A stretch of 64,000 nucleotides of DNA from contig OY987263.1 of NCBI GenBank assembly GCA_963920665.1, positions 24,912,547-24,976,546 of the forward strand, in the 5' to 3' direction. A program made the position numbers and the translations under genes. This DNA comes from Straminergon stramineum. Lineage: Eukaryota; Streptophyta; Bryopsida; Hypnales; Calliergonaceae. The notes under the pieces are model-generated. The model did not search any database and was not told the DNA's origin. It was given only the letters and a program-made list of their open reading frames with translations. Shown here piece after piece: positions 9,801 through 63,132 of the stretch (within the stretch, counting starts at the first letter, position 1; each line of letters starts with the position of its first letter).

Positions 9801-12800
9801 GACAGTATTTTTGGCCCTCCAAGATGCAGCACGTCTCCACAATTGTGTTAAAAAAAACGGATGAAAAACTGCATTCCTACTTCCTACAGATTACTTTCTT
9901 GTTATTCATCAGACGAAAAACGTCCGCATCGGCGTTTATGGGTTAATGAATATTATTGGCCATCTCTGGATCTCTGGCTGCTCACCCTGGCTTGGCCGAC
10001 TGGTTTAATTTCCTAGTTCTGAACTTTTTTCCACCCCCTTGGCCACTGCTTACCCATTTTTTGGAATTCAAGTCTCAACTTCTAGGATTTAACCCCACAC
10101 TTGGATCTCCTTTCAGGGACCCTTTTAATCTACAAAAATTGGAAATTTTTGAATAAGAGAGAAGCTACACCATCCAGGGATGGGTGGGGTGGGGTTAACC
10201 TCAACCTTTTAAAGACTAAAAAGTAACCCCAGGTTCAAAGCTTTGCTATACAGGGGGTTTTAAGCCCCGATTTGAACAACCAAAAGAGTGACAATAACAG
10301 AAAATGTGTTAGAAAAAGTGTCTAGAGGTGAAAGCTTTGTAGTATGGTGGGTTAACACTATGTTATGAGATACAAACAAGAAATTAGTTAAAACTTGAAG
10401 TTCTAGTTAGAATAAATAACCACAGAAGTAGTTTGCACATCAATGATTGGTTTGCAGGACTTTGGAGGATTGCAACAAACATCACCTCCCAAATGACTCA
10501 ATGACTCATGATTGGACCACAATTTCTCCACGTCAAGGCTTCAAGGGGGATCTTCAACATAAAATGTGTGAAATCCTCACAAAAAAAACTCGATAGGAAA
10601 TTGAGACTTCAAAAACACAAAGAGGTTAGCAATCGAACTTAGCAAAATGCCACAATGGTTAAGCATTTCAAAGGGACCCCCACATCCTTTGAAAGGGCTT
10701 CAATAACTCAATGAATTTATGGGAAATACAACCATTGATGAAGTTGCAAAGGAAAATAAGAGTTTTTGGAGAAATATCAAAAAATCTCACAATGTGGTTG
10801 CAATTTGGCCGAGCACAAAAACAAGAAAAGTCTTTCAAATGAAGGAAAAGGAATGCAAAGTGAGAGGAGGGGAAGCCTTCTATACATTTCTAAGGTCTCC
10901 TCCCCCCTAAAGTTACCTAACAAACTACTCCTAGGAAAAACCTCAAAATTAACTTTTAAATTTCTACCCTATTGTTGTGACTGCTCTATCTTTTGGAGAA
11001 ATGCTCCAAAAGCCAGACGGCTTACGCCATTGTCTTCAAAAAATCCAAATTAATCTAGACGACCCCATACCCCCTAGTCCTAGTCCATTTCGCAAACCAA
11101 AGCTAGCGCTTTGAAATCTAGTGAAAAAGGTCAAAAACTCAAAGTTTTGACTAGCTAGGGTAATTTAAGAGTTTCAATAAAGTAAGAAAAGACTCGAAGT
11201 TGACTTCAATCAGACTTCATATGCTCTAGATACACCAAGCAACTCATTGGGAATTTGGGAATTCTATCAAAAGTTACAATCGCCACTAATTTTGGTACTT
11301 GTTGGTGTTGGAACGTCTTGAAATTTGGCAAGGCCTTTATTTATGCTAAAACATAGTATCTTAACTTTTAGTGGGGTTTTACAACTACCTTGGTAATTTC
11401 CATAAATTTTCAAATGCCGGTAAATGTTGTTGACTTCCCATGGAGTCATCTTCTACAATCCAGAAAATTATGAAACTTTGTGGATAGCTACTAGGAAGAC
11501 TCCAAATGATAAGTGCAATTTTTCATGTCTATTTTGCACATTATGGTAAAGGTGTTAAAATAACACCTATCAAATTAATTCCTCTAGGGAAGAATCATTC
11601 CCGTACTAGGGAATTTTCACCAACTAACTTTGCCATTGTATTCTTAGCATGTTTTCAACTAAAACACCTCTGTGTATCCATCAGTTGCACAATCATCAAA
11701 CTTGTGGATTTCACTTGCAAAGAATAAAAAGTGACTTTTCTAATTCTTTGCGAATTGGATGGTGATCTTTATGTAGGTGACCTACATGTATTTCTAGGAC
11801 TTAGGGAACCAATTCCCACCTTGACCCTCTAACTTCTATACTCTAACCCTTTATCACCATTCCCCCAAGGTTTGGCCCACTATAACCCAAATTAGGTGTT
11901 CTTACATATTCTTACCAATATGACTTAAACTACACCAAATCCTAATTGTTATACTGAACGCTTAATTTAGACATTGGAACTTTAGAAAGGAAAGTATTTA
12001 AGGCACTTCTAGGACTTTTAGGACTAACACATCTCATTTTTAGGGACTTAAACCAAATTCATTGTAAATACTCTTTTTCAATCTTTTCAACTCTAAATGA
12101 TACTTATTATGAGCAAAAGCAAAAAAAACCCAAGACCCAGGTGCTAACTATAGGGCTCATAGGTTGCTACAAAGATAAGTCCTATAATTAATCATTTGCA
12201 TGAAGGTTCAAACCTAATCATCACATATGGCAATGGATAAGTAAAATGCACATTTCTTGAAAGCCTACATCCATTTGTTGTTCACGGTTTCTTTTAGGTT
12301 TCAAGTTAAGATGTTTGCTAGTTTCTCTATTGTCAATTTTTGCAAAGATGATGTATGAAGTTATTATTCATTATTCAAATAGTTAGTGATTTAGGGTTTA
12401 GGGTAAGAAATAGAAAAAAATGAGGTTAAAGGTAATATTATTTCCAAAAATCCACCCCACTAATGGTATTGAAAGTACCAAAATGCGATTGAATCCTCTA
12501 GTTCATGAATTTTTGCTCTTAATGCATCTATGAAAGAGTACCACCAAGCTCTAATTCTAGATACATCTTGTCTGCTTCACATATCGACTTTGTATCCTTG
12601 TCATTCATGTAGAGTCAAATATGATGGTTCAAGAACTATTTGGCAATTAGCTTCTTCTTGTGTTTGTGCATATTTACTACCCATTGAAACAAGCAAGTCC
12701 TTTCAAGAAATGTAAAGATGGTTTGCCAAAAATCCAAGAGAATCCAATAACAATTCATTGAATCAAATATCAAATATCATTTGACCATCTACCATCAAGA

Positions 12801-41816: not shown

Positions 41817-41826
41817 GTGGTTGGCA
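41817..41826. repeat. Left target-site duplication of the giant element
   Basis: GTGGTTGGCA; the partner at 59440-59449 is GTGGTTGGGA (9 of 10 bases match). A length of 9-10 bp is typical of Mutator-like transposons. Confidence 0.75.
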
Positions 41827-42200
41827 GGGGAATGCTGGTATGTGAGCATGGAGCGGTGAGCGGTGAGCGAGAAGCGGGGATTGGTGAGCGGGGTTTAGGG
41901 TTATTGGTTTAAAAATATTTATAAGAAAAAATGGATTAAAAATTTGCTAGAATTATTTGGGAAATTGGATTGAAGTTGAAGAAGAAGTTGATGAATGTCG
42001 ATGGAAAATGGATGAAAGTGGTTGTAAAAAGTTGATGAAAGCAGTTGGATGAAATGGATGAAAGGGATGAAAGTGGTTTAGGATAATTGATGAATTTCAT
42101 TGGAAAAATGGATGAATGAATTTTAGGGTTTGGATGAAAGTGTGTCAAGAAATAGATGAAAGTAGATGACAAAACAAGATGAAAATGGGTGAGAAAATGG
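41827..42200. repeat. Left terminal and subterminal inverted repeat of the giant element
   Basis: It comprises the outer 21-bp end, then GCGGTGAGC-type short repeats to about 41.9 kb, then clustered GGATGAAAGTG-type units to about 42.2 kb. The 78-codon ORF on the minus strand here is a by-product of this repeat. The inner limit is approximate. Confidence 0.75.
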
Positions 42201-45200
42201 GTGAGAACTTCCTATGAATAGATGCCATTTTGGGAAAGACATCGGAAAAAGGCTAAGATTATGTTTTAGGGCTCCATTTAATTGAAAAGTGGTTAGGATT
42301 TAGGGTCCCATTTTCTGTAGAAACAATTGTCTTATAACCGTGCAGGTGTAGTCTACCTACAACAGTGGGTTTAGGTCACGTGAGAGGTTTAGGGTTTTAG
42401 GATTTTAAATCAATTTTGGTAGTGCAACCTCAAATCACTATGAATAACATCATCTAATTTAGAGCCACAAACATTCAAATGATATAAGTAGACTTCAAAT
42501 AGGAAAGAAAGGAGAAATTTAGAAATAGTCAATCACCAACATGCACTGAAAATACCATAGTGGTGTACAACAATATTTCAGCTGAAGTGGGCTGAGGTCG
42601 AACTACCCTCACTATCTGATGTTTGTGAATCTGATTCTGTAGCACAATCATCTACGAACTCCAGTACACGAGGATCTACCAAATGGGCCCTAGAAGTTGG
42701 CCTCGAATTTAGGGCAATGAAATCCTTGGAAACCGCCTCAGCATACACGGGCAGTTGAAATGGCTTAGGGGGACTTGGGAAAAATCGAGGGTTGGAAAAA
42801 AATGGAACCTTCTTAGAGTTCTTCACTGTCGGGTCTTGCCTATCAAAACAAGTGAACAAAGTATTAGATCAAATGAACCCATGAAGAAAACAGTAAATTT
42901 AAACCATAGAACTCAGAGGAAAACTTACTTACTGAATTGTGATGTCTTGACAATAGCTTGGACCGGTACATCCATGTCGTCAAGATCTAGAGCGGCTGTA
43001 GGAGGGTGTGGCGATGGCGGTTTTGGAACTGTGCGCATGACTGGAGCAATGAGGGCATCAAAGATAGCCTTGTCCTCCTCAAATGCTAGAATGTGCCGAC
43101 GTGTGGCACGACAAGCTTGAATGCTGGCCCCTGCTAGCATCCAAGAGAAGTTAAAGTCCAAGACATCGAAATAGCTATATTATCCAATAATTCGACATAA
43201 ATTAGTTGAACAAAGAAAACAATAAGTACCTGTAGACGCAGTGCAGTCGACGACGACGTCCCCAGGTTCAGAGCATGCTTCTATAAGCATTTGCATGAAC
43301 TGCCGAGCCTTTTCCCGAGGACCCCGCCACGGTTTGTTGCCATTCATGATGACGTCCTCCTTGTTACAAAAATTCTGGAGGATGTCGTCCCGTCCCACAT
43401 TAACACCCACTGCATCATGGGATGGGACGAATTGGAAAGGAAATTCCTCCTGTGTCTTTGGTCCACATTCCTTGACCACCAGAGAGATGGCAAATCTCAT
43501 TGTCTGCAGGCAGAAGAAGTAAGAAATCCAGTATAGTTGATGAGAAAATGCATGAAAAGTATTTAGGAGTCTAAAAGGTCTCTTACCGTCTTAGTGGGAT
43601 CAGCAAGCGAGGTTAAGTGAAGATGATTCATGCCGAACCAAGTGATGAGTATTCTGAAGTTATACTCTTTGCAACATCCGAGTATGTGGCTTCTGTGGGG
43701 AACAGAGGGGGCTGGATACATCACCAACATACCACCACTGTCGTGCAAAAACTCTTAAGCGAAGTCAAAAACTGGAACTAACCATTGAGATGTGAACTTG
43801 TTCCACTTAGGAATGGGGCCAGGTGGAACTGATATGGTAGGTACATGGAGACCTTCGGAAACATCCACGATGATCAAGTCCACAGCTGATTGGGAATCGA
43901 GGACCCCGTTGAAGTAGCGATCTTTGTCACTGGAATGCTGCACGGAAAAGTGTTAGTGACAAAAAACGAAGGAGGATAAGATATTAAAAAATGTATATTG
44001 AAATACAAACGTCACTATAGTAAACAAAGCCGCGGTTTAGAGCCAACAAAAGAAGAGATGTGTGATGCAATGGTGGTTTAGGTTTTTGAAAATGATAGAG
44101 GCACGGTGGACATAGGAAGAGATGAAGGGCTTACCATGGCCAAGAAGGATAGGACATCATCATAGGCCTTTTTCGTGCCTTGAAGATTACCCAGGGCCAA
44201 GTTCAAGATGCACTCATCAATATCCGGAATAGGGTCTAGATTATGAGTTGTTGGTGTCAATCCATGCACCAAACGCTCTTGAGTTAGGGAAAAACCGGAC
44301 GACCCTTCTTTCATGTCAGCTGCACTAGTAGCCGATTCCTGCAATGGTGTCTCAGCTTTTCTCTTCGTGCCCTTCTTCTTAGCCTTCTCTTGATCCTTCT
44401 CAGCCTGGGCAGCAAGTCTCTTCCTCTTGTTTTCCTCGGTCTTCTTCTTGGCATCCTCCAATTTCTCCAATTTCCTCTTGTCAGACGCTTCACGCCTCTT
44501 GATGGCCCTATCTCGTGCCTCCGGGTCTAATCCGGCGAATTCATCGAACTCTGACTCAACAATGGCGGTATCCTTGAGCCTCTGAAAAAGAATCTCCTCT
44601 TCCGGTGGCGTGATCCCGAAGTTGCACTCCAGGTACCAAGGGCAAGCCTGCAAATGAGAGCTCGTCCAGTTCTTCAACTGTGTGGGCGAAAACATACAGT
44701 CTGCGGAGGATCGATCCAGCCACGTGGTGAGAAATGGGGGCAAATCAGCCTTTGCAAGGGCTTTCTTGCCATATAACTCGAACTTGAAGTACCTACAAAT
44801 GAATTTTTCATGTTAGTCTATCTCACTTCATGGAAGAGTAGTTTGGTGTGTGTAAGACCAAATTGCAATAGAAGTTTAGAATATATGGAAGCGATTGCAT
44901 GTCTCAGTGTACATCACAAAAAAGTTTAAGAGAAATAGAACCAGCTCCATTAGAAAAGATCCTAGACCACTCAATTAGACTGGACACATCTACATTGGTA
45001 GTTCTTCGTCGACTGTGAAGGCACATTCAAAATTAGAGGAAGAGAAAGGAATGGTTAATCAGAGAAACATATACCTTTATATCACGCGTTTAACTGCCAA
45101 TACGAATCCCCTGAAGTCCTTGAAGGAGTCTGACTTTTTGAAGGCGTCAGCACCCTTGAACGTACCCGTATAAGCATGATCCCAAAGCTTCATTCTCCAC

Positions 45201-45862
45201 CCCTCCAAATACTCGGAGAGTGTTTGCGGCTCAGTAGCAACAGAGAAGTCCACGGTTATATTATCTGCCTGGATTATAGAGTCGAACATCTCAGTAGCTG
45301 TCTCCTCAATCTGTTTGTACATGGGGATCACCATCCATAGTAAAGTGAGTAAGAACAGTAGATTTTTTTGTATACTAGATTAAAGGAATGTGAAGATAGC
45401 AACTGGAATTATTTATGGTACTTTGACGAGGGGTAGGAATTCATAGAAAAAAATATTACCCCTGCATACCAGCATGCCTTACTAAGGAAAACCTGTAATT
45501 TTTCCTCATTCACAGGACGCGGTGGGAAGCGGCGTGCCTCTCGAGTGGGAGCTGAGGCATTGATCCATTTCAACCACCTAATCTTGAACACCGCATTGAT
45601 GTTGGCTGTCGCAATCATTTGCAACTTTTCTAAGGTCAACTCGGGGCTGGAGTATAGGCTCCAGTGCCGTTCAATCTGTGTCCAAGCAAAGAACACCTGT
45701 TTAAAAACAGAAGACAAGAGTAGAGTTTCAATCCTCTGAATTCAACTATGAGTGGACTGTACCTCTTCCAACCAATCTCTTCCAAGTGCAGGGTTGGCCA
45801 CCGCTACAATCTTCGATAACTTCTTGTACAGCTTCTCCGTGGTTTCCTTAATTGAACACCGC

Positions 45863-47258
45863 TGTTGTATTGTAAATGTGTTCATTATGTGAAAATGCAT
45901 AATTGTTTGTTAAATTGGAGGGTTTTTTTTGTAGAGTTTCAAGAAACAAATGGGGTTATACTCCACTTGAATTCTTTTTTTTTACCTCTATTTGACAAAC
46001 ACTTAGTTCTTTGATTTATATATTAGAAGATATTTTAATAGGTTAGTTAGTTAGGTTGAAGTTGTAAAAGCAAAAGGTAAAGCTTGTTTTACCTTTTTCC
46101 TTGTTTTTATTTTATTTTTAATGGATTAGAAATCCACGTAGATGATATGGATAGACTTATCGAGAAGAGGAAGTGGCCCATGTGGTATTATGGCCCATGT
46201 GGCTTCTTAGTGGCCAAAATCCACTAACTTAAGTGGATGGTATGAAGGTTGAGGTGGCGGATGAGGTTGAGGATCATCTTCTTCCTCCTCCTTGTTTTGC
46301 TTAGGGAAGCCGTCACTTTGGGAGGGGATAGGACTTTGTACATGGAGAGTTTGGTAATGAGATATTGAGAGCTTGTGTATCTTGTTTTTGTGTTTCCAAA
46401 AAGCTATCACTCATGAAGTTTGGAGTTAGTATGTGTAAGTTATGAGTTTGGGAGTGAATTGTTGTGAAGCTGCCTCAAACTTTCAAGAGAGTGAGCTTTG
46501 AAAGGGTGTGAAATGTGGACAGTATTTTTTGTTTGAGTGAAACTTGGAGAGCTTGTAGATATTCATGTTAGCTTTCCAAAATGGGTTTATTTTCTTGATT
46601 TGGAGGTAGTATGAGAAAGTTATGGGCTTGAGAGTGAAAGGGTGAAGGGATACTTTCGGGTTTTCAAGTGAGTGAACTTTGAAAGGGTGTGAAATGTGGA
46701 AAGTACTTTGTATTTGAGTGAAACTTGGAGAGCTTGTATATGTTCATGTTAGCTTTCCAAAATGGATTTAGTTTCTTGATTTGAAGGTAGTATGAGAAAG
46801 TTATGAGCTTGAGAGTGAAGTATAGGTGAGCTGCCTTTGAGTTGGGAAGGGTGAACTTTGACCGACCATAAAAGTCGGACAGTATCTTATTTTTGAATGA
46901 ATTTTGGAGGGGTTGTAGAACTTTTTGTTAGCTTTTCAGAGGCATATCACACTCTTAGTTTGGAGTTGTATAGCGAACGTGGGACTCAATCAACTATCAG
47001 ACACTTCTTCGAGAGGAGTTCATGAAGGATATAACTTTGTTTCTACAATTTTTTACCATGCATGGGGTATATTGAGACTCCATGGCATCTTTCGAGGGGT
47101 GTATGGAAGGGTGATAGTATGTTGGTTCATATGGCATCATGGGGGGGATTTATTGTTATGTTTGTGACTTTGGCCATGGGATCTTTCATTATTTGAACCA
47201 CATCTAGTTGCAGCTAGAAGCCCCGTGTTTTCCCAAGGCAAGGCCTCTCTACTCGATA
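45863..47258. mobile_element. Solo LTR, copy 1 (1,396 bp), inserted in an exon
   Basis: It starts TGTTGTATTG and ends ACTCGATA (expected CGACA, as in copy 2). The flanking tetramers are CCGC and CTGC, a target duplication with one C-to-T change. With it removed, the reading frame of the methyltransferase gene continues (...GVATAM then RCSIKETTEK), so this is a later, independent insertion. It contains an extra 181-bp internal repeat unit (46500-46680 and 46681 onward) that copy 2 lacks. The orientation of the parent retrotransposon is unknown. Confidence 0.7.
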
Positions 47259-49253
47259 CTGCATTGCCGTTGCAACTCCCTCTTTGGACATCTCATCCTC
47301 CGCGGTCTCCTCGTTGTATTTTCGAACTGCAGCATCAGCAGCTGCTGCGATTTCTTGCTGAAATAGCAAGCGTAGCACATAAGAACAAGGTGTGCTCGGA
47401 CAGAAAAGTGAAGTAAAGAACAATGAGATATTAATTTGCATTGAAATGATAACCAACTAGTAAAGGAATCATATTTTACCTTGAAGATGAAGGAAGTGAA
47501 GACTTCTAGGGGCATAGAATACCATGTCCTTCGTGTATTCTGCTGGCAGGTTTTAATGTCATCATGACTGAGAAGCTCGTTGAACTTCTCGAGATCCATG
47601 ACTCCGTATTTTTGCACTCGATACAATGTGTGTACGAGGTTTGTCTTGACATGAGAGTTTTCAGTATGCCTGTCACACCATACCACTCCAACATATGAGG
47701 TGCCAATGAAAAAAATAAAACCAAGAATTCAAATGAAAATGAAGATGTGTAATAAGTTCAATTGGTTTAATCCAAGTAGGTAAGGCGTACTTGTTGATGT
47801 CGTGCATTGCTTGCATTGCCACCCCGATACGATTCCGTGTATCAAGTACAATGGAGTCCACTGAAATATGCCAATCCCTCTCTATTCAATGAAGTCGGTT
47901 AATATGGTTCATCCAAGCTATACGTCTGTGATTCCCATCACAGACAAAGAACTTGTAGTCCACTAAGTGCTTCACAGCTGGTTTGGACTTCAAAGAAAGA
48001 TTGAACTGATCATTCACCGAATTCCATATGGGCCCCCACTCATCTTTCTCTCTATTGGAGAAAACTGCTCTCTGACCATCTTCATCCGAAATGGAGACAT
48101 AAAAAAACCTCACGCCTTCTTCATATCCATGGCTAAATTGATTCTCAAGCAATGTAAGATCGCAAGAGAGTGTCGGTCGGACCATAGGCATAGGCACCAG
48201 TCGGCAAAGGGGAATCCGCATGCGGGGGAGATTAGAGGTGGTCAACCGCAAACTCGAAATGATAGACACTGTGTCCATTGTTTGGGACTTCCTGATGTCA
48301 TCCTCCATGTAGTGATGCTGACCTCCAAGAAGGTGGTCCTCCACACCGTCATCCATTTCCACGTCCAAGCCAATGCCTGGTTGTGAACCCACATCCACCA
48401 TCGTTGACCCACTGGACCTTGTCGGAGAGTGAAGAGGTCCTGATGAAGTAATGTTCTATATTGAGCAGAGAAGTATAATTAAATCATAATTCAAATGACA
48501 AATCAGCTTCATTTGGTCACGAGAAAATGAAATCAGAAGACGAAAATGGGAGTCTCATAATAATAATAATAAAAGAAACAATTGTTCAAGTACTCATTCA
48601 TGTTATCTCAAAGTAAGCGCTATGAAAGTACTCAATCCGCATCAAACAGCGCAAACACAAGCCTCAGTAAGAGACCTGTACTGTCCACAACAAAATATAA
48701 GAATATCAGCATCAGACACTACGCCGGATGTGACCTCTACATCCACATGGTTGCATGTGCAATACTCTGTCATCTCCTCAATGACGTAATCGACCTCCAT
48801 ATCTTGGTCATCTCCTACGCTGGTGCAAGAGGAATGAGGAGGTGATGACTCTCCTTGACTGGACATGTCCTCATTGTCTGTGTCTAAGTCCCGTATTAAC
48901 GCGTCCAAGCTTACCCTCGGTCTCGGTAATGGATTTTCCAGAATATCAGGAGGTGGTAACTCGGCCGTCTCCATCTCCACGAAAACCTCAAGAGGCACTT
49001 CTGCAACTGTTGCTATGTCCCCACATCCTTCAGTCCCATCAATGACAACATTGTCCAGGGCAGCCAGGATGTCCTGAATCAAACCAACTCCAGTTATGAC
49101 AAAATCATGAGGAGAAACACGGAATAAAACGTGAAGCCCAATCATGTGATCCCTCGATGTCCAGAACTCTTACGTAGAATCCCCCTTGATGAAGAATATC
49201 TTAGGATTATGGAAGCCCACCAAGCGCAAACTCAAATTTGGAATGCATGCACA

Positions 49254-51430
49254 TCATATAGAATACGGTAATACGCATATAGGGACCAAGGCTGGATTTC
49301 CTCTCAGACCCGAGAGGGGACCTGGGGTCATCCAAGCTATGCACAGATACCCGCATAGGGACCTCCCCTTCAAAAAATTCAAATCGCAAAAAAGTAAAAT
49401 ACTCTCATCGAAATAAAAAAGGGTGGCACTGAGAATACCTAGAGAAACCCAACAGGCCTGAAAGCATGAGCATTCGCAAAACAAAAGATGAAACCTAAAA
49501 TTCCAAAGACAGTGAAGGACTGGAATCAAAGGGGCCGCGGGCTCCTCCCCTGCGCTCGGTATGCATGGGGTCTCTCACTGTCTGGGACCTCTCGGGCCCG
49601 AGAGGGGACCCGGGGTCACCCACGCTATGCACAGATACCCGCATAGGGACCTCCCCTTCAAAAAATTCAAATTGCAAAAAAATAAAATACTCTCATCAAA
49701 ATAAAAAAGGGTGGCATTGAGAATACCTGGAGAAGACCGACAGGCCTGAAAGCATGAGCATTCACTAATCAAAAGATGAAACCTAAAATTCCAAAGACAG
49801 TGAGGGACTAGAATCAAGGGGGCCGCGGGCTCCTGCCCTGCGCTCGGTATGCATGGGGTCCCTCACTGTCTGGGACCTCTTGGGCCCGAGAGGGGACCCG
49901 GGGTCACCCACACTATGCACAGATACCCGCACAGGGACCTCCCCTTCAAAAAATTCAAATCGCAAAAAAGTAAAATACTCTCATCGAAATAAAAAAGGGT
50001 GGCACTGAGAATACCTGGAGAAACCCAACAGGCCTGAAAGCATGAGCATTCGCAAAACAAAAGATGAAACCTAAAATTCCAAAGACAGTGAGGGGCTGGA
50101 ATCAAAGGGGCCGCGGGCTCCTGCCCTGCGCTTGGTATGCATGGGGTCCCTCACTGTCTGGGACCTCTCGGGCCCGAGAGGGGACCCGGGGTCACCCATG
50201 CTATGCACAGATACCCGCACAGGGACCTCCCCTTTAAAAAATTCAAATCACAAGAAAGTAAAATACTCTAATCAAAATAAAGAAGGGTGGCACTGAGAAT
50301 ACCTAGAGAAGACCGACAGGCCTGAAAGCATGAGCATTCACTAATCAAAAGATGAAACCTAAAATTCCAAAGACAGTGAGGGACTAGAATCAAAGGGGCC
50401 GCGGGCTCCTGCCCTGCGCTCGGTATGCATGGGGTCCCTCACTGTCTGGAACCTCTCGGGCCCGAGATGGGACCTGGGGTCACCCACGCTATGCACAGAT
50501 ACCCGCACAGGGACCTCCCCTTTAAAAAATTCAAATCGCAAAAAAAATAAAATACTCTCATCGAAATAAAAAAGGGTGGCACTAAGAATACCTGGAGAAG
50601 ATCGACAGGCCTGAAAGCATGAGCATTCACTAATCAAAAGATGAATCCATAAATTCCAAAGACAGTGAGGGACTGGAATCAAAGGGGGCCGCGGGCTCCT
50701 CCCCTGCGCTCGGTATGCATGGGGTCCCTCACTGTCTGGGACCTCTCAAGCCCGAGAGGGGACCCGGGGTCACCCACGCTATGCACAGATACCCGCACAG
50801 GGACCTCCCCTTTAAAAAATTCAAATCGCAAAAAAATAAAATACTCTCATCAAAATAAAAAAGGGTGGCACTAAGAATACCTGGAGAAGACCGACAGGCC
50901 TGAAAGCATGAGCATTCACTAATCAAAAGATGAATCCATAAATTCCAAAGACAGTGAGGGACTGGAATCAAAGGGGGCCGCGGGCTCCTCCCCTGCGCTC
51001 GGTATGCATGGGGTCTCTCACTGTCTGGGACCTCTCGGGCCCGAGAGGGGACCCGGGGTCACCCACGCTATACATAGATACCTGCGCAGGGACCTCTCAC
51101 GCAAAAACTGAAATCGCAAGAAAGTAAAATACTCTAATCAAAATAAAGAAGGGTGGTTCTGAGAATACTTGGAGAAGACCGACAGGCCTCATAGCGTCGG
51201 CTTTCACTAATCAAAAGATGAAACCTAAAATCCCACAGACAGTGAGGGACTGGAATCAAAAGGGCCGCGGGCTCCTCCCCTGGGCGCCGTATGCATGGGG
51301 TCTCTCACTGTCTGGGACCTCTGGGGCCCGAGATGGGACCTGGGGTCGCCCACACTATGCACAGATACCCGCACAAGGACCTCTCACGCAAAAACTGAAA
51401 TCGTAAGAAAGGAGAATACTCGCATGAAAA
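49254..51430. repeat. 288-bp tandem array, about 7.5 copies, GC-rich
   Basis: ATGCATGGGG occurs at 49561, 49849, 50137, 50425, 50715, 51004 and 51291, giving spacings of 287-290 bp; a degraded unit precedes the first. Each unit carries the 18-bp perfect palindrome CCTCTCGGGCCCGAGAGG (for example 49588-49605), with variants. Each also has inverted 14-bp arms (AGACAGTGAGGGAC and its complement) about 50 bp apart. Because 288 is divisible by three, the same 60-80-codon ORF recurs on the minus strand in each unit; I treat these as repeat artefacts. The array lies within the putative first intron of the ParB-methyltransferase gene. Confidence 0.9.
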
Positions 51431-51871
51431 AAGAGAATGGTGGCACTGCGGCGCATCTGCGGGAAACCTCTCTGTTCCGATTGGATCCTGTTTTACTGAA
51501 GAGAAATGGGGGTTACACGCATTACGACCAGAGTGATGATTTTTGAAATGTCTTGATTATTGGGTTGTAGGACTTACTCCCGAGCTTGATGTCGGTAGTG
51601 TCGCTACTGCGACAGGGACTTCTCCAACGTGGTTCCTTCGTGATCTCAGGTTACGTTCCATCACCATGGTTGCTGTAATGAAGAAACCGCAGGGGATAAT
51701 CTTCCGATACCAGGAGTTGAACATACAACGCGCTCTTCCAAACTGGTGTGTAGCAAATGAAGAGCAGGAGACTATGTTAGCGCCGTCTTCCCTCTGATGA
51801 CAGGAGTCCCTCAGTGGGTGTACTTCCTTCGGCGTCGGCGTTGGTGTCTTCGTGGAGGGAATCGCGGCCAA

Positions 51872-52993
51872 ACCTATGGGGCTTTAGGTCTGGTAGACCC
51901 ACAGGAATCGCTTGCTCGGGTTATCAATTTAGGATTGTTTGTCAATGGAGCTTCACTTGAAGATTTGACTGAAGGTCCACTGGCTCGATGATCTCATGTA
52001 GTGGATGTTTGTGGTTAATTTTTTGAATGAAAATTGCATGTAATGAGATATGTATGGGATACACACTGTATCTGGTCTGTCTCGCAAACTGACTTATTTG
52101 TGATCGTTCCAAAAAAGTACTTTTAGTACTTGACAGTTTATTTTTGGGGTCACAGAAGAACTTTCTTTTTAGATTTATGTCATTTTCATTCAACTCAGCT
52201 ATCTTCCTCTAGTTCATGATTCTATGAGTCGCGAATTTCATTTCCATTACTACCTAGATCCAACTTAAACTGTGTAAGGATTACAAAGGGATACACGCTG
52301 AAACTAGCATGGGGACTATTTGAATTGGACTACTTCTGACAAGTAATAATTCTAATGTGATTTTATATTTTCTTTCTTCTAGAATTATAAAAATCCATCC
52401 GTTCTTTTCCTTTGACTACTAATGATGTGAGTTATTATATTTTCGTAGATGTGGCTACAATATCGAAAGGGTCTATCCCTTAAACCCTCTGCAATTTTGT
52501 ATTGTTCATTTCCAATACTTGTGTCCACTTTATATTCTATCTAAATTTTTATGATGGGTTTACTATAAAAAATACTTTTATCCAAAATGATTATTCTAGG
52601 CTTCTTATAATAAACTTTTGTAGGCATATATTTATTTAAATATTTTATGAAAGTGATAATTTCGTTTATAGCCTTGTGCTGTTGATTCGTGGCTTCTAAT
52701 CATAGTTACTTTGTAGGGAAATCATCCTTATTTAGGATGACGCATGGTGGCTCTTCAGAATATTATTCTAGCGAGGAATTTTTAACATACTGGATGCATG
52801 GAATAAAATTAGTCATTTTCATCTAAATGACACAACTAATATATTGTTATATTACATGATTCCATATTTGATGAGTACTACTATATATCTTTAGTGGATG
52901 TTCTTTTTGACGTCTACTAATAATCAGGCATCTAGGATATTCGTAGTCACATGCAATCAATGAACCGTCACCTTCCCTTAAATATGAAGCCGT
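51872..52993. other. Intergenic region of the giant element
   Basis: This is the spacer between the 5' ends of the two divergent genes, so promoters for both may lie here and in the 54.2-54.5 kb stretch. The minus-strand ORF ending at 52847 contains LREGDGSLIACDYEYP, faintly like a DDE transposase piece, and is cut by the LTR at 52994. I see no firm promoter element. Confidence 0.5.
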
Positions 52994-54191
52994 TGTCGTA
53001 TCGTAAATGTGTTCATTATGTGAAAATGCATAATTGTTTGTTAAATTGGAGGGGTTTTTTTTGTAGAGTTTCAAGAAACAAATGGGGTTATACTCCACTT
53101 GAACTCTTTTTTTTTACCTCTATTTGACAAACACTTAGTTCTTTGATTTCTATACTAGAGATATTTTAATATGTTAGTTAGTTAAGTTGAAGTTGTAAAA
53201 ACAAAAGGTAAAGCTTGTTTTACCTTTTTCCTTATTTTAATTTTAATTTTAATGGATTAGAAATCCACATAGATGATATGGATAGACTTATCGAGAAGAG
53301 GAAGTGGCCCATGTGGGTATTATGGCCCATGTGGCTTCTTAGTGGCCAAAATCCACTAACTTGAGTGGATGGCGTGGAGGTTGAGGATCATCTTCTTCCT
53401 CTTCCTTGTTTTGCTTAAGGAAGCCTTTACTTTGGGAGGGGAGAGCACTTTGTACATGGAGAGTTTGGTAATGAGATTTTGAGAGCTTTTGTATCTTGTT
53501 TTTGTGTTTCCGAAAAGCTATCACTCATGAAATTTGGAGTTTGTATGTGTAAGTTATGAGTTTGGGAGTGAAGTCTTGTGAAGCTGCCTCAAACTTTCAA
53601 GAGAGTGATCTTTGAAAGGGTGTGAAATGTGGAAAGTACTTTGTATTTGAGTGAAACTTGGAGAGCTTGTATATGTTCATGTTAGCTTTCCAAAATGGAT
53701 TTAGTTTCTTGATTTGAAGGTAGTATGAGAAAGTTATGAGCTTGAGAGTGAAGTATAGGTGAGCTGCCTTTGAGTTGGGAAGGGTGAACTTTGACCGACC
53801 ATAAAAGTCGGACAGTATCTTATTTTTGAATGAATTTTGGAGGGGTTGTAGAACTTTTTGTTAGCTTTTCAGAGGCATATCACACTCTTAGTTTGGAGTT
53901 GTATAGCGAACGTGGGACTCAATCAACTATCAGACACTTCTTCGAGAGGAGTTCATGAAGGATATAACTTTGTTTCTACAATTTTTTACCATGCATGGGG
54001 TATATTGAGACTCCATGGCATCTTTCGAGGGGTGTATGGAAGGGTGATAGTATTTGGTTCATATGGCATCATTGGGGGGGATTTATTGTTATGTTTGTGA
54101 CTTTGGCCATGGGATCTTTCATTATTTGAACCACATCTAGTTGCAGCTAGAAGCCCCGCGCTTTCCCAAGGCAAGGCCTCTCTACTCGACA
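52994..54191. mobile_element. Solo LTR, copy 2 (1,198 bp)
   Basis: It starts TGTCGTATCG and ends TACTCGACA, so it has TG...CA ends with a TGTCG/CGACA inverted terminus. It is flanked by CCGT on both sides (52990-52993 and 54192-54195). It is nearly identical to 45863-47258 apart from one fewer internal 181-bp unit. Its own target duplication shows that the two copies are separate insertions and not the two LTRs of one element. Confidence 0.75.
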
Positions 54192-54547
54192 CCGTCAGCG
54201 TGTTCCTAGGTTCAGTGAGTGCATGCATTAATTCGTAAATGGTTCAAGATGACCCGTGTTTTTATCTGCACTTTCTATTTCAATGTTTTCTGAGGTGTCT
54301 TACCATCTTCTTTGCTCATTCTAGAAGATGTCACACTTTCCTTTCGTTTTAGGAGATTGTAGCAGTAACCATTCTGAATGATTTCCGAAGAAGTGCTTTA
54401 CAGATGTGCTCACTTATGGCCTTTGTGTTGTTCCTTCATGTTCCATTACTTATACTTAGTATGTCATGTTCTGAAGTTGATGTAGAGAGTCATTTGTAGT
54501 ACAAGTTACATTGTATTGGGTTAGAAAGGAGTGCTGGGAGATCGGAC

Positions 54548-57500
54548 TTGAGTTCGATGGCGGACTTCATTGATATGGTTGTTGTCACTGCAAATGGTGA
54601 AGGGGTACCTATCATTTTCCTGGTGGAACAAGGCGGACATGCCGAAGTGTCGGCGGTTAGATTAAGTCGTAGGTTCCAATTGAGATTGGATTCGATCCAT
54701 GTCGATGAGGAAATTTATGAAAGTGAGTCAGGTGTTCTTACTCACACTGTTGGACAATTACCGGCATCCAGTGGGGAGAATACTTTCTGGAAATTAAAAT
54801 CCGGAAAATATAGGGCCTACGGCATCCGTATTTTTCATGGTTCAAATTCCAATGACGGAGTGACATTCAACCGGTCCTCTCCTTTGTCTTATAAAACTCC
54901 TCCCTTAATTCATGTTAAGGTTGAAGGTCATTCTGAGAAAGTCACCTGCTTGAGTTCTGATTCAGATGTCAATTCCCCTGAACCACCTTCTAACTCTGAG
55001 ACTCTTCATGCGGTGCTGACTTTGCAAAACTTAGGTGCATCAAAAGAGAATGCGACCGAAGACCTAGATGTCCGGAATATATCTGCAGCATCTGTCCTTG
55101 ACTGTTTGAGAGGTCTCCATAACTTAAAAGGTTGCAGGAATGCTTTGTCCAAAATTGATTACGACACTATTGACATTCATAGAGTGACGGTGTTGCCACC
55201 AACTTTTAATGGCGATGTAGTTTTTGAGTTGCCAGCATTAGACAATCTTGGGGCTCCATCTCAAGCCAAGCAAATGGTTGGAATGGATAAACGATACGAT
55301 GGACATGTTTGGTCCAAGACTGTCACGACAAACATAATCAACCGTCAAGGCTTGTCGTTCCGCACGTCAGTTTGCTTAGGCCATCTTAAGTGTATGAACA
55401 CTGAGTGTGCGTTCCTTAGTCACACTCACCGGGTGAAGGAGGTCAATGAATTGGAATGGGAAGGTCTAGCACCCACTCCACTTGAGGTTGGACGTACGCA
55501 TCCCATAGGTTCCACACTTGTATGTAAAATCTGCAAAGAGGCACCATCGTGTATTGCGCGGTGTAATGCGCGAGTTTATTATGTTGGTGGAAACCCGAAA
55601 TTCACTAGGGCGTTTGTTCATCTTGGAATTCATGAACATCCGGTTAAAGATGGTGAACTCAGAAACATGTAGGAGAAAACGCGAACTCTCATTGGTGAGC
55701 AGCTGGAGAAAACACCGTTAGCGACCAATTCTTCTATTGTGATGGAGGCTACTAAGGAACTACTTGGTGACTTCCTTTAAATATTTGAGGAGATTTGGAG
55801 TGATAGATAGCATTACGAAGTTGAGGGGATCGAGTGCCTGGGCCTTCGTTCAAGAAAGTAAATTTCCACGTCAGGGGACAAATGTTGATAAAATATTCGT
55901 CTTCAAAATGTCTGAAGTGGGGCCAGGTAGTAGAGTCGACCTGGTGAAGCACATGCAAACTGGAGGGGACCTTCAAGATTCTTGGATCATGTTTGATCAC
56001 GTCAAGCATGTTAGAGGGTGGACAACTATGGCATGTCATGTTTATGACTCTTCGTATTGTCGTGTGATGACCATTGCATGTTGCGACATGCAATCTGAAG
56101 ATTGCGCAGCACAAATTTTGTTCTGGAAGAATTTGAATTCTGTACTTGAAAGAAATGGTGTACCAATGACTCAGTTCAAAGGATTCATGGCAGACAGTGC
56201 TCAAGCGAATTGGAATGCTGTAAGGATGGTCTATGGTTCTAGTGACATTGCCGAGCCAATGGAAAATCGAGAAAGAACATGCCTCTTCCATTGGTCTCAG
56301 TCCATGGAAAAGCATACAAAGGCTGAAATTCGTGGGAACATGCAGGATCAACATCGTATGCTATGCAAACAGTACAAGAATGCTACGACTCTTGAAGAGT
56401 CCGAAATGCGTTACCTTGCTATTAGGGCATGGTGGTTGTCATCAGGAGCTACTACCGAAGAAGGACTCCATCGATTGGAGCTATGGCTTTCATTTTGGCA
56501 TTTCCGTTATCGCCAATGGGGTGGTTTCATGCAACTAGTAAGTCTTTGAACTACATGACTTTCACTTCCTAATCATTTTGATATTGTTATATCTATCATG
56601 AGTTCTTCAGGTCTTCTTATAGGCCCCGCCATTGTTTTGTCTCTTGAAATTGGGGAATGGCTTTACCCTAGGTTGTACACCATTCATAAGATGTCGTCAT
56701 TGTTGAAGTCAGTCATGCATGAAAACTATATCCTAAAGAGTCTGTCGGGGCCAAGTGGGGTTACCTAAATACCTAGGATCATGGATTTATCATTCGTTTA
56801 TAGATTGGCTATTGAATTCCTTGAACCACTGCCGGATAAGTGGTGCATGGCTCGACTACCCCTTGGGGCCGTTTCGGTGCTGAGAAGGGCCATTCAGAGG
56901 GTACCCTCAGGCAAACTGTACAAGCTCTTCTGATTAGATAATGTGCTTCAATGGAGAAGTTTTAAGAAAGCATTGCAGGGCAGTTGGACCGTCGATGAAC
57001 TCTATTGGTAGCCTACTTTCTTCTGTCCCGAATATTGATTGCATTGAAGTGTACAAAGATCTGATTATGGTATTTCAATTCTGCATTTTCCAAAATCTTA
57101 CAGAATTGGAGCTTGCAGAAATGCCATCCTGCAACTTAGTCGAGACTGTCCACAACAAGTGGCTACAACAATCTGGAAATCGTGGAAATGATTTATACAT
57201 TGCCACGGTGGACGATTTTGTTAGAGCTTTCATGCAAATGGTCCGATATTATCAGTACCTCAAGGGGAATCAAGCCGGGACAGGACCAGGGAAGGAAGAA
57301 TTACTATTACGTGTTGCCCAGCGATCGGCTGAGCGGACTGGAAATCCCAAGGCTCTAACGGATGCTATTTCAAACATCTCTAGAGTGGCAGAATTTCTGA
57401 ATAGAGAGATCCATTTAGAAGGTGAAGAAGTTTTTGGGTCACAGAAAAGAAAGGCAGACATGCCACTTGGTTGCGAATACGATTCTCACAGACCAGACAA

Positions 57501-58563
57501 GGTAAATTTCTCTCATCCTCGCATTCAGACAAGATCATGGAGAGGCACACGAAGTACAGAAGATTTGAATCCAATTCTTGAAGACATTGCTCCAATGATA
57601 GATGTGCACACTAGCGACGTGATGTTGGACGAGGAAAACTCAGGCCAGAATATTGCTCAGACCTCAACTCATGTGTCAGCAATTCAAGAGAGTGTCTGTG
57701 ATGAGATGTAATGGCACATTGCTCGATTACCCAAGACATCAGCAAAGGCGTGCTTCGCACTTCAAGCGATTACTAGAAAGAAGTGTATAGCCAAAATAGT
57801 CCACAACAACATGGCAACAACAACGCCCACTTACACAGGTATGATGGTGAATTATAGAAAGAATTGTAATGAACGTATGCAATTTTTCTTCTGCAACGAC
57901 GACATTGAACGCTGTGTCAAGGGAACACGTAGAAAATGGGTGGTATCAAGACCCCCTGTTCCGATCATATGGCCTGTTCAAATGGGCACCAAACTCTCGA
58001 AGGCCGAGATTCTAGCCTTCGAAGCAGCCGGTTTCCAACTTCCGCAGCGTCAACTCATTTCACCCCGAAGACTGTTTGGTGGAGAAGCAGGCATCGATTT
58101 GGTGCGTGGCTACCCTATTCCATCTCTATCTGATGAGCATCCCAACATTTGAGCGGGCAAAGTCATTCGTCGCAACCCGAAGGCCCCAACAACTAAGCAC
58201 CAGAACAATTGTGCTTCGGCCTTGACTCTTATTGCACACATTCAAAGGGTAACCATGGTTCCTCATCCTGGATTTGGTTGCATAGTCTCTCTCATTTCTG
58301 GTGTAGAGCCTCGAACTGAAAAGTATATGCTTACAATCTCATCATTCCCAGATTGTACCTGCCCATATTTCAAGGAGATGAAACTGAAGTGCCTTAGAAA
58401 GCGTGGAACCTGGGCAAATTGTAAGCATCTTTACTTTGTCTTCACTGTCATTTGCAACCTCCAATCTACATCAGATGGCTTCATTCATGCCGCGAGTTTT
58501 AGTTTCAATGAAGTCAAGGAAGTCCTTCTCAGTGGGATACTAAATCATTTAGGATCAAATTAG
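54548..58563 (+). pseudogene. Mutator-like (MULE) transposase, disrupted
   Basis: MULE transposases cut and rejoin DNA at the element ends. The first ORF (374 codons from 54548) ends with a Cys/His region (SVCLGHLKCMNTECAF, LVCKICKEAPSC, ARVYYVGGN, GIHEHPV) like the WRKY/GCM1 zinc fingers at the N-terminus of MULE transposases. The DDE-type core follows at 55.8-56.5 kb: a first Asp in SWIMFDHVKH, a second in GFMADSAQANWNAVRMVYG, then CLFHW, the CxxH motif typical of MULEs. A GT-AG intron probably starts at 56536 (CTA|GTAAGT). The C-terminal exon (from about 56941) ends with a SWIM finger (CTCPYFKEMKLKC, then CKH). Breaks: TAG at 55670-55672, a one-base frameshift near 55780, TAA at 57709-57711 and TGA at 58150-58152. 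In each case coding sense continues beyond the break. I could not resolve the reading between 56611 and 56940. Confidence 0.8.
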
Positions 58564-59079
58564 GATTATATTTCTACAAAGAATGAACACTGTGTGTGTT
58601 TATTGTACTCATCATTGAAGATGTAGTGAGACTACAAGGGCCACTACATGCGCTTCAATTATACATGTGAATTTGCACCCTAAACCAATCTCCAGTCTAC
58701 TAGTACTTCACATTATGTTTCACTGTATTTTGCCTCTTACATCAGCTTAATGTACCTTATGTTCCTTACTATTGTGTCTCCACCGATTCCTAGCATGTGA
58801 CCTACATGTAAAATCATAATATATTGGTCATGAATTGGGGTTCTTAAATTCCTTATACAAGCAAAATGGCCTTGTCCCAATGTCCTTGAAACCCTTAAAA
58901 TATATACATAACAGGTTTAATTGCATTCTACTGTATTATGGTTGTTGAATCCCACACTTTCATATTCCACGGTCTTAGGTCACCCTACTTCCGTGGTCAT
59001 AGGTCAAGCACCGAAGAAGTTTTAGTTTATGCACAACAGAATTTTATACTGGGTTTCACATTTTCTTCCTTTTGATTTT
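58564..59079. other. 3' flank of the transposase gene
   Basis: AT-rich sequence between the transposase stop and the right subterminal repeats. It presumably holds the 3' untranslated region. Nothing else is seen. Confidence 0.5.
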
Positions 59080-59439
59080 CTTAGTTCACCTACTTTTCAT
59101 CCACTGTTTCCATCTATTTCCTTCTACTGTTTCATCTACTGTCATCCACTTTTTCATCTACTTTCATCCACTTTTTCATGTACTTTCATCCATTTTTTTA
59201 AACTACTTCCATCCACTTTTTTATCTACTTCCACCCAAATTTTTTTAACTTTCATCCAATACTTTGCTGACTACCAAAAATTCCTTCACTTTCATTAAAT
59301 TTTCATTGACTTTCATCCAAAAAAAAATTCACATCCTTCGCTTTCTTTCCTTTTTTGTCCAAGATCTACGCTCACCGCTCCCCATTCCATGCTCCCCGCT
59401 CGTCGCTCCCTACTCCCCGCTCACATACTAGCAACGTCC
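59080..59439. repeat. Right terminal and subterminal inverted repeat of the giant element
   Basis: Clustered ACTTTCATCCA units (59.08-59.32 kb) are followed by CTCACCGCTCC-type repeats and the end GCTCACATACTAGCA. The whole is the mirror image of the left end. The 89-codon ORF here is repeat-derived. Confidence 0.75.
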
Positions 59440-59449
59440 GTGGTTGGGA
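59440..59449. repeat. Right target-site duplication of the giant element
   Basis: GTGGTTGGGA, matching 41817-41826 at 9 of 10 positions. Confidence 0.75.
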
Positions 59450-61449: not shown

Positions 61450-62163
61450 GTATGTCAAGCTACTGATTTGTTCCGCGCCTTTGATTCTGGTGGCACTATC
61501 TGTAGTTGCTAGTGGCATCTTTGGGGTGGGTTCAGTTTCGCGTGATGAGTTGCATTTTGGTACTGGTTCATGGTTTTGATTTTGACGATTTTGACGATCA
61601 TGGAGTATTTGCTGGGTTGGAAGTGTGTCGACCGACTTTCGAGGATGTAGTTGTGATTTGAGAGGATTTTTCGTTTCTCTAGGTTTAAGGGAGGTTTAGT
61701 TTATGTTGTGGAGGGCTTGCCTACTACTGAATTTTGGAAGTGGTAGTGTGGTTTTGGTATTAGTGGGTTGAGGACTTTAGGAAATACGTCGCATTCTTGA
61801 ATGAAGGTATTCGAAGATGAATGGTATGTTTACATGGTGTGGACACTGAAATGTTGGACGATGGGCTCGTTCGCATCTCGCAATTTGGGGGATGGCATTG
61901 TATTGGTTGTTGGCTGTGTCACCTTGCTTGAGCTGGCGTTGCCTAGTTCACTTGTTAATCATTATGACATAATCACCTCTTAGGGTCTCAAAGTTTCTGT
62001 GTTGGATTTGTTCTGAATCTCTTGTAGCGGTCGTTCCTCAAGGCGTGAAGCTCGCTATTGTAGTCTCTACGTTTGCAGCTTTTTTTTTGTGTGTCTTTAC
62101 TACGACCTTAGCTACCGTTTCTTGATTTTGACTTATCTGATTGCTTGGTGCAGCCCTAGAACA

Positions 62164-63132
62164 ATGGAAGACGTGGAGACGGAGCAACGAATCAGCCGAA
62201 AGAGGCGGAAGCTCACCACTCGTCAAGGGGTCGTCATCGGAGTAGCAACAGTGGCAGGTCTGGGTTTAGTCGCCAAGCTCGTTTCCTTTTTGCGTCGGGA
62301 TAAACCCAAGGAAGTGGAAGACAGCGACATCCACTCTCTGGAAGCCGTGTTGAGTGGCGACGCTGTGAAGGGCATTCTTGCCACTCCCCAATTCGCAAAC
62401 CTCGAAGAAGACGATGCGCACGAAGCAGATTCGTCAACTCCAGAGAGAGATGCAACCCAAGATCTGGACGCGAACACCACGCCTACGTCTCATTTGAATG
62501 GCGAGGAGAATGGTTTTACGCATCCCAGTGACAACAGGGATGCAACCCAGTTTCGCAAGGAGAAAGAAGGGGAGCATCGTAGTGAGGATGGAGTGGAGCC
62601 TCCCGTTGGCAACACGGATGAAGAGTCTCACACTGAGGAAGTCGAAGAGCTTCCCATTGAGGACGCGGAAACGCTGTCCACCGAGGACGTGGGGAAGCTT
62701 CCTACTGAGGATGTCGAAAGGCTCCCGACTGCAGAAGGGCAAAAGCTTCTTACTGAGTATGTAGAAAAGCCGCATGTAGAACAGCTTCCCACGGGAGATG
62801 AGGGAAAGCTTGACAGTGAAGGTGATGGAAACTTTCAAGTCGAGGATTCGGAAGAGCTTCCCACAGAGCAAAGGACGCATTCAGTCGAGGCTCACAGTGA
62901 GAAGCAAGCCAATGGAGATGTCGAAGGGCTTGGTACTGATGGTAAGGTGAAGCCATTCATTGAAGAAGCAGCGGATGCAGACAGGCTTGACACGGAAGAT
63001 GCATCAGAGCCTGAAGTCAAGGATACAGAAAAGGCTGGAAATTGGAAGCATGAAAGCGAAGAGTCAGTAGAAGCTCACAGAGTAGATGATGAAAAGGATC
63101 TCACACAGAATGGAGAGATACTTCAGTCATGA
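62164..63132 (+). CDS. Acidic repeat protein with one N-terminal membrane-like segment (322 aa), function unknown
   Basis: The start is ATG at 62164, 10 bases after the acceptor AG at 62153, and is followed by MEDVETEQRISRKRRKL. The longer frame from 62089 begins inside the intron and is rejected. Residues about 20-42 (GVVIGVATVAGLGLVAKLVSF) form a single hydrophobic segment with an arginine/lysine-rich stretch on each side, so a membrane anchor with a large soluble C-terminal part is plausible. From about residue 150 the protein is a degenerate 8-11-residue repeat of the type EDVEKLPT, very rich in Glu and Asp and probably disordered. I do not recognise a family. Codon use and GC content are normal for a host gene, unlike the surrounding AT-rich repeats, and the frame is intact. 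An AATAAA-type signal near 63690 fits a 3' end there. Confidence 0.75.
   Translation: MEDVETEQRISRKRRKLTTRQGVVIGVATVAGLGLVAKLVSFLRRDKPKEVEDSDIHSLEAVLSGDAVKGILATPQFANLEEDDAHEADSSTPERDATQDLDANTTPTSHLNGEENGFTHPSDNRDATQFRKEKEGEHRSEDGVEPPVGNTDEESHTEEVEELPIEDAETLSTEDVGKLPTEDVERLPTAEGQKLLTEYVEKPHVEQLPTGDEGKLDSEGDGNFQVEDSEELPTEQRTHSVEAHSEKQANGDVEGLGTDGKVKPFIEEAADADRLDTEDASEPEVKDTEKAGNWKHESEESVEAHRVDDEKDLTQNGEILQS

Follow-up and report, generated by a model that had tools for sequence, protein, structure and literature searches.

The 64,000-nucleotide stretch of DNA analyzed here (the window) is from the moss Straminergon stramineum (contig OY987263.1, positions 24,912,547 to 24,976,546 of the forward strand). 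We found that positions 41827..59439 of the window are one decayed copy of a family of DNA transposons with short imperfect inverted ends, and that the element is likely Mutator-like. It carries a transposase gene on the forward strand and, divergently on the reverse strand, a partner gene whose product is predicted to have a bacterial-type N6/N4 DNA methyltransferase fold. In the loci compared in this genome, the motif that would hold the catalytic site of that fold is altered. Judging from the sequence, and with moderate confidence, we interpret the partner as a dedicated second gene whose product would bind the element's own DNA and counter host silencing rather than methylate DNA.

Ends and copies of the element

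The element opens with GGGGAATGCTGGTATGTGAGC... at 41827 and an imperfect inverse of this sequence closes it at 59439, with 48 of the 70 terminal bases in agreement. The left terminal inverted repeat (41827..41896, forward strand) is GAGCG-rich; the right one occupies 59370..59439 on the reverse strand. They are flanked by a 10-bp target-site duplication, GTGGTTGGCA on the left (41817..41826) and GTGGTTGGGA on the right (59440..59449), identical at nine of ten positions. The original prediction, made from the letters of the window alone, had described inverted ends and a 10-bp duplication around two divergent multi-exon genes. This was confirmed, though with the imperfect matches just given.

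The assembly comprises 326 Mb in 59 contigs, of which the 11 that supplied fetched sequences measure 17-47 Mb. We searched it with both ends, and scored the best 40 of 75 left-end candidates and the best 40 of 87 right-end candidates. A right end was found on the same strand for 34 of the 40 left ends. The resulting pairs were 13.4-14.6 kb long in 19 of the 34 cases, and the others reached up to 38.3 kb. With 34 paired copies, we rejected the possibility that the inverted ends had arisen by chance. Ten end pairs, picked for a size of 13.5-14.2 kb, were fetched and, together with the window copy, gave 11 copies that were read. Across these copies, 38-49 of the 70 terminal bases agreed between the two ends, and the 10-bp target duplication was exact in five, matched at nine of ten positions in four (the window copy among them), and was absent in two.

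The window copy is 17.6 kb long, compared to the 13.5-14.2 kb of the ten other copies. Seven of the ten were aligned to it, and the alignment revealed two nested insertions that swell the window copy, at approximately 45863-47257 and 52992-54191. Both were missing from all seven aligned copies. The two insertions belong to one 1.2-1.4 kb repeat family, lie in the same orientation and are 92-99% alike. The predicted 17.6-kb transposon is therefore correct as a span, but not as the native size of the element. We also considered whether the direct repeats at 45843-47256 and 52973-54189 were a pair of long terminal repeats around the exon with the ParB-like motif. This was rejected, because both repeats were missing, and the DNA between them was present, in all seven aligned copies. 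Approximately 100 bp of the transposase gene, near 55766-55779, are absent from the window copy and present in all seven.

Linkage of the transposase and partner genes

The original prediction had asked whether other copies hold both genes between the same ends, and within this genome they do. An exon encoding the methyltransferase fold was located inside all 34 end pairs, in the expected orientation opposite to the transposase. All ten of the partner exons tested, and the transposase core, were present in each of the 11 copies read. For 40 of the 46 methyltransferase exons with at least 80% identity, a left end was located no more than 3 kb away.

Linkage was also detected beyond this family. 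We scored the best 150 of 642 candidate methyltransferase exons in the genome, down to 37% identity, and the best 150 of 856 candidate transposases. A transposase on the opposite strand was located 4-30 kb upstream of 97 of the 150 exons. In control configurations the corresponding numbers were one (same strand, upstream) and two (downstream), and random placement gave a mean of 0.94 and a maximum of 6 in 500 placements. The number of linked exons was 38 of 46 at 80-100% identity, 1 of 3 at 72-79%, 44 of 56 at 55-71%, 0 of 6 at 45-54%, and 14 of 39 at 37-44%. Viewed from the transposases, 97 of 150 had a listed exon: 37 of 41 at 75-100% identity, 50 of 56 at 66-74%, 2 of 10 at 62-65%, and 8 of 43 at 55-61%. 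A divergent transposase was present in all five of the loci from other subfamilies that were extended (A, B, C, F, and G). The locus of subfamily A (C4:17.70-17.71 Mb) is 16.1 kb long and has both ends, with a 9/10 duplication beside the matching inverted end. For B, C, and G, none of the patterns that we used located the ends.

MULEs (Mutator-like elements) tend to pick up fragments of host genes (PMC6446971, excerpt), and the partner could in principle be a host gene captured by chance and carried as a Pack-MULE-like passenger, an outcome that the original prediction had named as its own alternative. We consider this very improbable. The gene is in all 34 end pairs and in all five extended subfamily loci, it comprises several exons, and its nonsynonymous divergence between subfamilies is low (see below). 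A passenger in the strict sense, that is, a fragment private to one or a few copies, was rejected on the basis of the 11 of 11 copies, the 34 of 34 pairs and the 97 of 150 linked exons. Within the genome, chance capture of a host gene is not what was found.

Predicted methyltransferase fold of the partner gene

The exons of the partner gene are all on the reverse strand and are described here from the 5' end of the gene. A probable N-terminal exon (48642..49169; an open reading frame with putative splicing) is acidic and rich in Cys and His (CTCNHVDVEVTS...CCGQYR), and a similar segment is present in subfamily A. It is followed by an exon with the ParB-like motif DGNHR and one in-frame stop (47790..48206), and by an exon at 47501..47662. 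The next exon is cut by the first nested insertion (45863..47257) into a 5' part (47259..47357) and a 3' part (45760..45861). Three exons encode the middle region (45457..45675, 45080..45310, and 44135..44791), the last of them rich in Lys and Glu. They are followed by the exon that has the altered motif IV, DVSEG in the window, and one in-frame TAA (43587..43937). An exon with motif I (GDVVVDCTASTG; 43228..43503) and an exon with the second half of the region of motif I, which binds S-adenosylmethionine (SAM), (ASIQACRATRRHILAFEED; 42931..43128) come next. The last exon (42578..42838) encodes the C-terminal tail and was located by tblastn with the exons of copy C6_169.

The C-terminal part of the predicted protein has the motifs, and the motif order, of a permuted N6/N4 DNA methyltransferase. 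SAM motif I (DCTASTGAS-like) is downstream of motif IV in the window copy, in subfamilies A, B, and D, and in the ten copies read, with substitutions in some, and the pattern DCTASTGAS...ACR...RH...EED is still recognisable across the motif I region. A profile built from four sequences of this genome and a protein from the moss Ceratodon purpureus (M758_1G295400) was aligned by hhalign to eight phage DNA methyltransferases with a probability of 99.3% (E 2e-19), compared to 0.2% for a reversed control. The Ceratodon protein, which among the matches listed was the partner's sole relative in the database, is 30% identical over 84% (E 1e-153). It scored 30.4 bits with the Pfam family N6_N4_Mtase (PF01555), above the cut-off of 26.7; the scores of subfamily A (23.9) and of the window exon at 43228..43503 (18.7) were below it. 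The profile alignment and the Ceratodon score support the DNA amino-methyltransferase fold that had been claimed for the gene, and the fold and SAM binding probably persist.

Other searches gave weaker results. The broken protein of the window had no match in the protein database, and searches with alignments returned only the Ceratodon protein among the matches listed. No relative of the partner was found in viral contigs. Sequence searches of the PDB gave only weak matches, the strongest of which were to DpnA and CcrM in their motif I region (E values of 0.026 or worse). Searches of PHROGs and NCBIfam returned DNA methyltransferase families only, with best E values of 3e-6 and 6e-5, the latter far under its cut-off. 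An AlphaFold model made from the Ceratodon protein together with window exons had a mean pLDDT (predicted local distance difference test) of 41 and was not used.

Alteration of motif IV

We compared motif IV (D-P-P-Y) in 60 loci: ten further copies of the window family, 40 diverged exons, subfamilies A, B, and D, the window, and six more distant exons retrieved by searching with the Ceratodon protein. The 40 diverged exons were taken from the 150 scored mostly for lack of stops (37 of 40). The fourth residue was aromatic in none of the 60 loci; it was E or D in 52 and K in 8. The exact pattern D-x-P-E/D/K-G was present in 50 loci, and the other ten, including DVSEG of the window, deviate at another position. 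The ten other copies of the window family have DVPEG or DVPKG; K can be reached from a Glu codon by a G-to-A change. In the profile alignment, D-V-P-E-G is aligned with D-P-P-Y-N of the phage enzymes. All eight phage methyltransferases have D-x-P-Y/F, and the Ceratodon protein has D-T-P-F.

In active enzymes, the target base is stacked against the aromatic residue of motif IV. Because this residue is gone, we predict that catalysis is absent or altered. One alternative is that the partner is catalytically active and marks the element as a DNA N6A or N4C methyltransferase, a role proposed for the ParB-methyltransferase proteins of algal transposons. Such an enzyme would be consistent with the architecture and size of the partner, which are the same as and similar to those of the 1104-aa Sola1 protein of Ectocarpus (PMC12477816, excerpt), and with the recognisable motif I region, the low nonsynonymous divergence across the methyltransferase region, and the D-T-P-F that the Ceratodon relative keeps. 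We nevertheless consider an active enzyme unlikely, given that none of the 60 loci has the aromatic residue and that the acidic fourth residue is common to subfamilies that are approximately 45% identical. The protection of the element by DNA methylation, one of the functions originally suggested for the gene, is likewise unlikely as stated, because the fourth residue is non-aromatic in all 60 loci.

Transposase and ParB-like region

The transposase gene is on the forward strand. Its N-terminal region (54500..55777) has one in-frame stop in the aligned part. The catalytic core (55767..56540; MFDH ... FMADSAQAN ... CLFHW) lies just downstream of the approximately 100 bp that are gone, and the C-terminal open reading frames (56938..58563) contain a SWIM-like CxC...CKH motif. 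The pattern D...D...CxxH is the catalytic pattern of Mutator-like transposases. In six aligned sequences both D residues were present in all six and CxxH in five, the exception being copy C6_169 with CLFY. The match to the SWIM family was weak (E 0.04; 13.9 bits, below the cut-off of 19.6). The core of 490 residues is free of stops in subfamilies A, B, and G, and has two stops each in C and F. Because of the 10-bp duplications, the catalytic pattern and the weak SWIM match, the element is likely Mutator-like. The original prediction had called the gene a MULE transposase; the Pfam MULE model had no match to the transposase pieces scanned. A sequence search of the PDB with the transposase also gave no match.

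In the N-terminal part of the partner protein, the segment FFVCDGNHR is well conserved, and DGNHR is common to A, B, D, the Ceratodon protein, and most of the copies read. We take this segment to resemble the ParB/sulfiredoxin signature. A ParB-like part followed by a methyltransferase fits the architecture of the 1104-aa Ectocarpus protein (PMC12477816, excerpt). We call the N-terminal part ParB-like by motif and architecture only.

Decay, selection, and probable exchange of the partner gene

The window copy is broken. The tested partner exons contain two in-frame stops, a nested insertion splits one partner exon, and the transposase has a stop as well; the window family is decayed as far as it was read. 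Preservation is better in some other subfamilies. At locus A, every partner exon is open (exons were delimited by eye), with GT/AG-like junctions at many boundaries. The partner gene is under purifying selection between subfamilies: among A, B, D, and C6_169 there were 0.13-0.38 nonsynonymous differences per site versus 0.68-0.91 synonymous differences per site (uncorrected and near saturation). The low nonsynonymous divergence was seen alike in all three regions compared (ParB-like, middle, methyltransferase).

The two genes have different histories. We built trees with FastTree and assessed them with a column-resampling test. In the transposase tree, A and F (77% identity) formed a group to the exclusion of the window family (64%); in the partner tree, it was A and the window family (75%) that grouped, to the exclusion of F (44%). 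Each grouping was recovered in 1000 of 1000 column resamples. Because A is near the window family in the partner gene and near F in the transposase, the different histories are best explained, from these comparisons, by elements having exchanged the partner module. Fast evolution of the F partner gene could contribute to the unusual position of F.

Locus F (L085+L087, C3:17.572-17.590 Mb) is itself a mosaic, with a transposase 77% like that of subfamily A and a partner gene 41-46% like the others compared.

Subterminal arrays and proposed function

Arrays of the heptamer GATGAAA are located just inside both ends and point inward in the four window-family copies that were counted. In the window, the left array of GATGAAA-type repeats is at 41973..42230 (forward strand) and the right array, the same motif read as TTTCATC, is at 59085..59260 (reverse strand). 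There were eight GATGAAA in the first 600 bp and seven in the last 600 bp of this copy, and seven in its 16-kb interior. In the three other copies, the numbers in the left and right 600-bp ends were 10 and 6, 7 and 7, and 10 and 8, compared to null means of approximately 0.5; the 12-kb interiors of these copies had one to three on either strand.

The substitution pattern in the family fits host CG/CHG methylation. In the ten copies, compared with the column majority, C>T differences amounted to 10.4% at CG, 10.6% at CHG, and 2.5% at CHH sites, and A>G differences to 1.3%.

VANC, a protein of the Arabidopsis transposon Hiun, binds clusters of a short motif in its element. In the anti-silencing reading that we prefer, the partner protein would bind to the element, and recognition of the subterminal arrays would be a candidate role for the ParB-like segment or for the middle region. 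The methyltransferase-like domain might hold SAM or a base with no transfer of a methyl group, and the bound protein could then shield the element from the methylation machinery of the host, in the way that VANC does in Arabidopsis. We propose a wider statement only tentatively, as a possibility that falls short of being probable: plant Mutator-like transposons may have made a prokaryote-type methyltransferase into a non-methylating, D-x-P-E-G type DNA- or SAM-binding shield against host cytosine methylation, with the module exchanged between elements and present at no fewer than 150 scored loci in one genome. In the literature searched, no description of an anti-silencing protein of this type was found.

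An alternative is that the partner is a co-factor of transposition, binding the ends or helping strand transfer, with no role in silencing. Strict co-inheritance with the transposase in the window family, and linkage beyond that family, would be expected of such a protein as well. The subterminal arrays could serve either protein, and the mutB open reading frame of the yeast element Mutyl and maize mudrB provide parallels. The transposase and partner trees differ, which speaks against a strict pairing of each transposase with its own partner, and we regard a pure co-factor as somewhat unlikely.

Several observations weigh against the preferred reading. Of the 150 scored methyltransferase exons, 53 had no listed transposase, 31 of these at 37-54% identity, and 53 of the 150 scored transposases had no listed methyltransferase exon, including 35 of the 43 in the 55-61% band. 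Listing the best 150 in both searches, or the existence of elements with only one of the two genes, may account for the weaker linkage at low identity. The partner gene has stops in all 11 copies of the window family that were read, two to eight in each. The altered motif IV lowers the likelihood of catalysis without excluding it. No GATGAAA array was seen near the left end of subfamily A, so each subfamily would need a target of its own. The Pfam family ParB_N had no match in the partner sequences, a tblastn search of phages with the ParB-like part gave no match, and hhalign against the N-terminal parts of two ParB-methylases from phages (one of them Pfam-confirmed), a very shallow comparison, gave a probability of 0.5%. 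Thus, the ParB-like domain originally predicted is retained as the DGNHR motif, and is not supported by Pfam or by this small profile comparison.

Other features of the window

The spacer between the two divergent genes contains a tandem array with a 288-bp unit (49300..51448; 7.5 copies, 92% matching), and reading frames are also repeated at the corresponding position of locus A. Outside the element, positions 12436-12704 (reverse strand) are a decayed remnant that contains stops and has approximately 40% identity to the transposase of subfamily A, and positions 62017-63129 (forward strand) are an open frame of 371 codons with no Pfam family above the cut-off. A scan with Rfam gave no match.

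Comparison with known systems

The original prediction knew of no description of a transposon that pairs these genes. The pairing is published, for algal transposons of other superfamilies: genes for ParB and methyltransferase proteins have been reported in transposons of brown (Sola1-1_Ec32 of Ectocarpus), green, and red algae, and proteins of this kind were proposed, as a possibility, to bind and modify their own transposon (PMC12477816, excerpt). Among the papers listed, this was the sole relevant one on ParB and methyltransferase genes in transposons. We found no paper combining Mutator-like, methyltransferase, ParB, transposase, and plant, and nothing relevant among those listed on cases in mosses or bryophytes; PMC12695648 does not mention Physcomitrium, land plants, moss, or ParB. 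Nor did we find a description of a plant Mutator-like case, of the altered motif IV, or of module exchange. With the pairing itself already published, the plant Mutator-like setting, the change in motif IV, and the module exchange are apparently new.

The moss partner resembles the algal Sola1 accessory protein in several ways. Both are encoded on the strand opposite to the transposase of a large DNA transposon, are approximately 1,100 aa long, and combine a ParB-like part with an N6/N4-type methyltransferase (PMC12477816, excerpt). The algal element is a Sola1 transposon, whereas the moss element is likely Mutator-like with 10-bp duplications, and its partner has an altered motif IV and a ParB-like part with no profile match; the likeness is one of architecture as described there. 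All reports of this type of accessory protein that we found were from algae, and the present results would extend it to a moss element that is likely Mutator-like. They also reveal that, in a gene under purifying selection, the catalytic motif has given way to a conserved motif that is mostly acidic. This makes it possible to test whether transposon proteins of the ParB-methyltransferase kind act through DNA methylation or through DNA binding.

The moss partner is also like phage and bacterial ParB-methylases, such as Bce_0392 of Bacillus cereus, in which a ParB domain, reported to show non-specific nicking of DNA (PMC5512222, excerpt), is paired with an adenine methylase. The phage ParB-methylase L080 passes both Pfam ParB_N and N6_N4_Mtase, whereas the moss family has neither a ParB_N match nor an aromatic motif IV. 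Fungal KDZ transposons carry TET/JBP genes and are likewise DNA transposons with genes of a DNA-modification type, although the transposase superfamily and the chemistry are different.

A parallel in function to the proposed role is VANC of the Arabidopsis VANDAL element Hiun, which has an anti-silencing function; Hiun, with VANC and VANB, is also a Mutator-like element with accessory open reading frames (PMC6446971, excerpt). Unlike VANC and VANB, the moss partner is predicted to have a methyltransferase fold, and the proposed likeness is one of function and element architecture. If the partner does act by binding, methyltransferase folds would be, alongside VANC, a further origin of anti-silencing factors.

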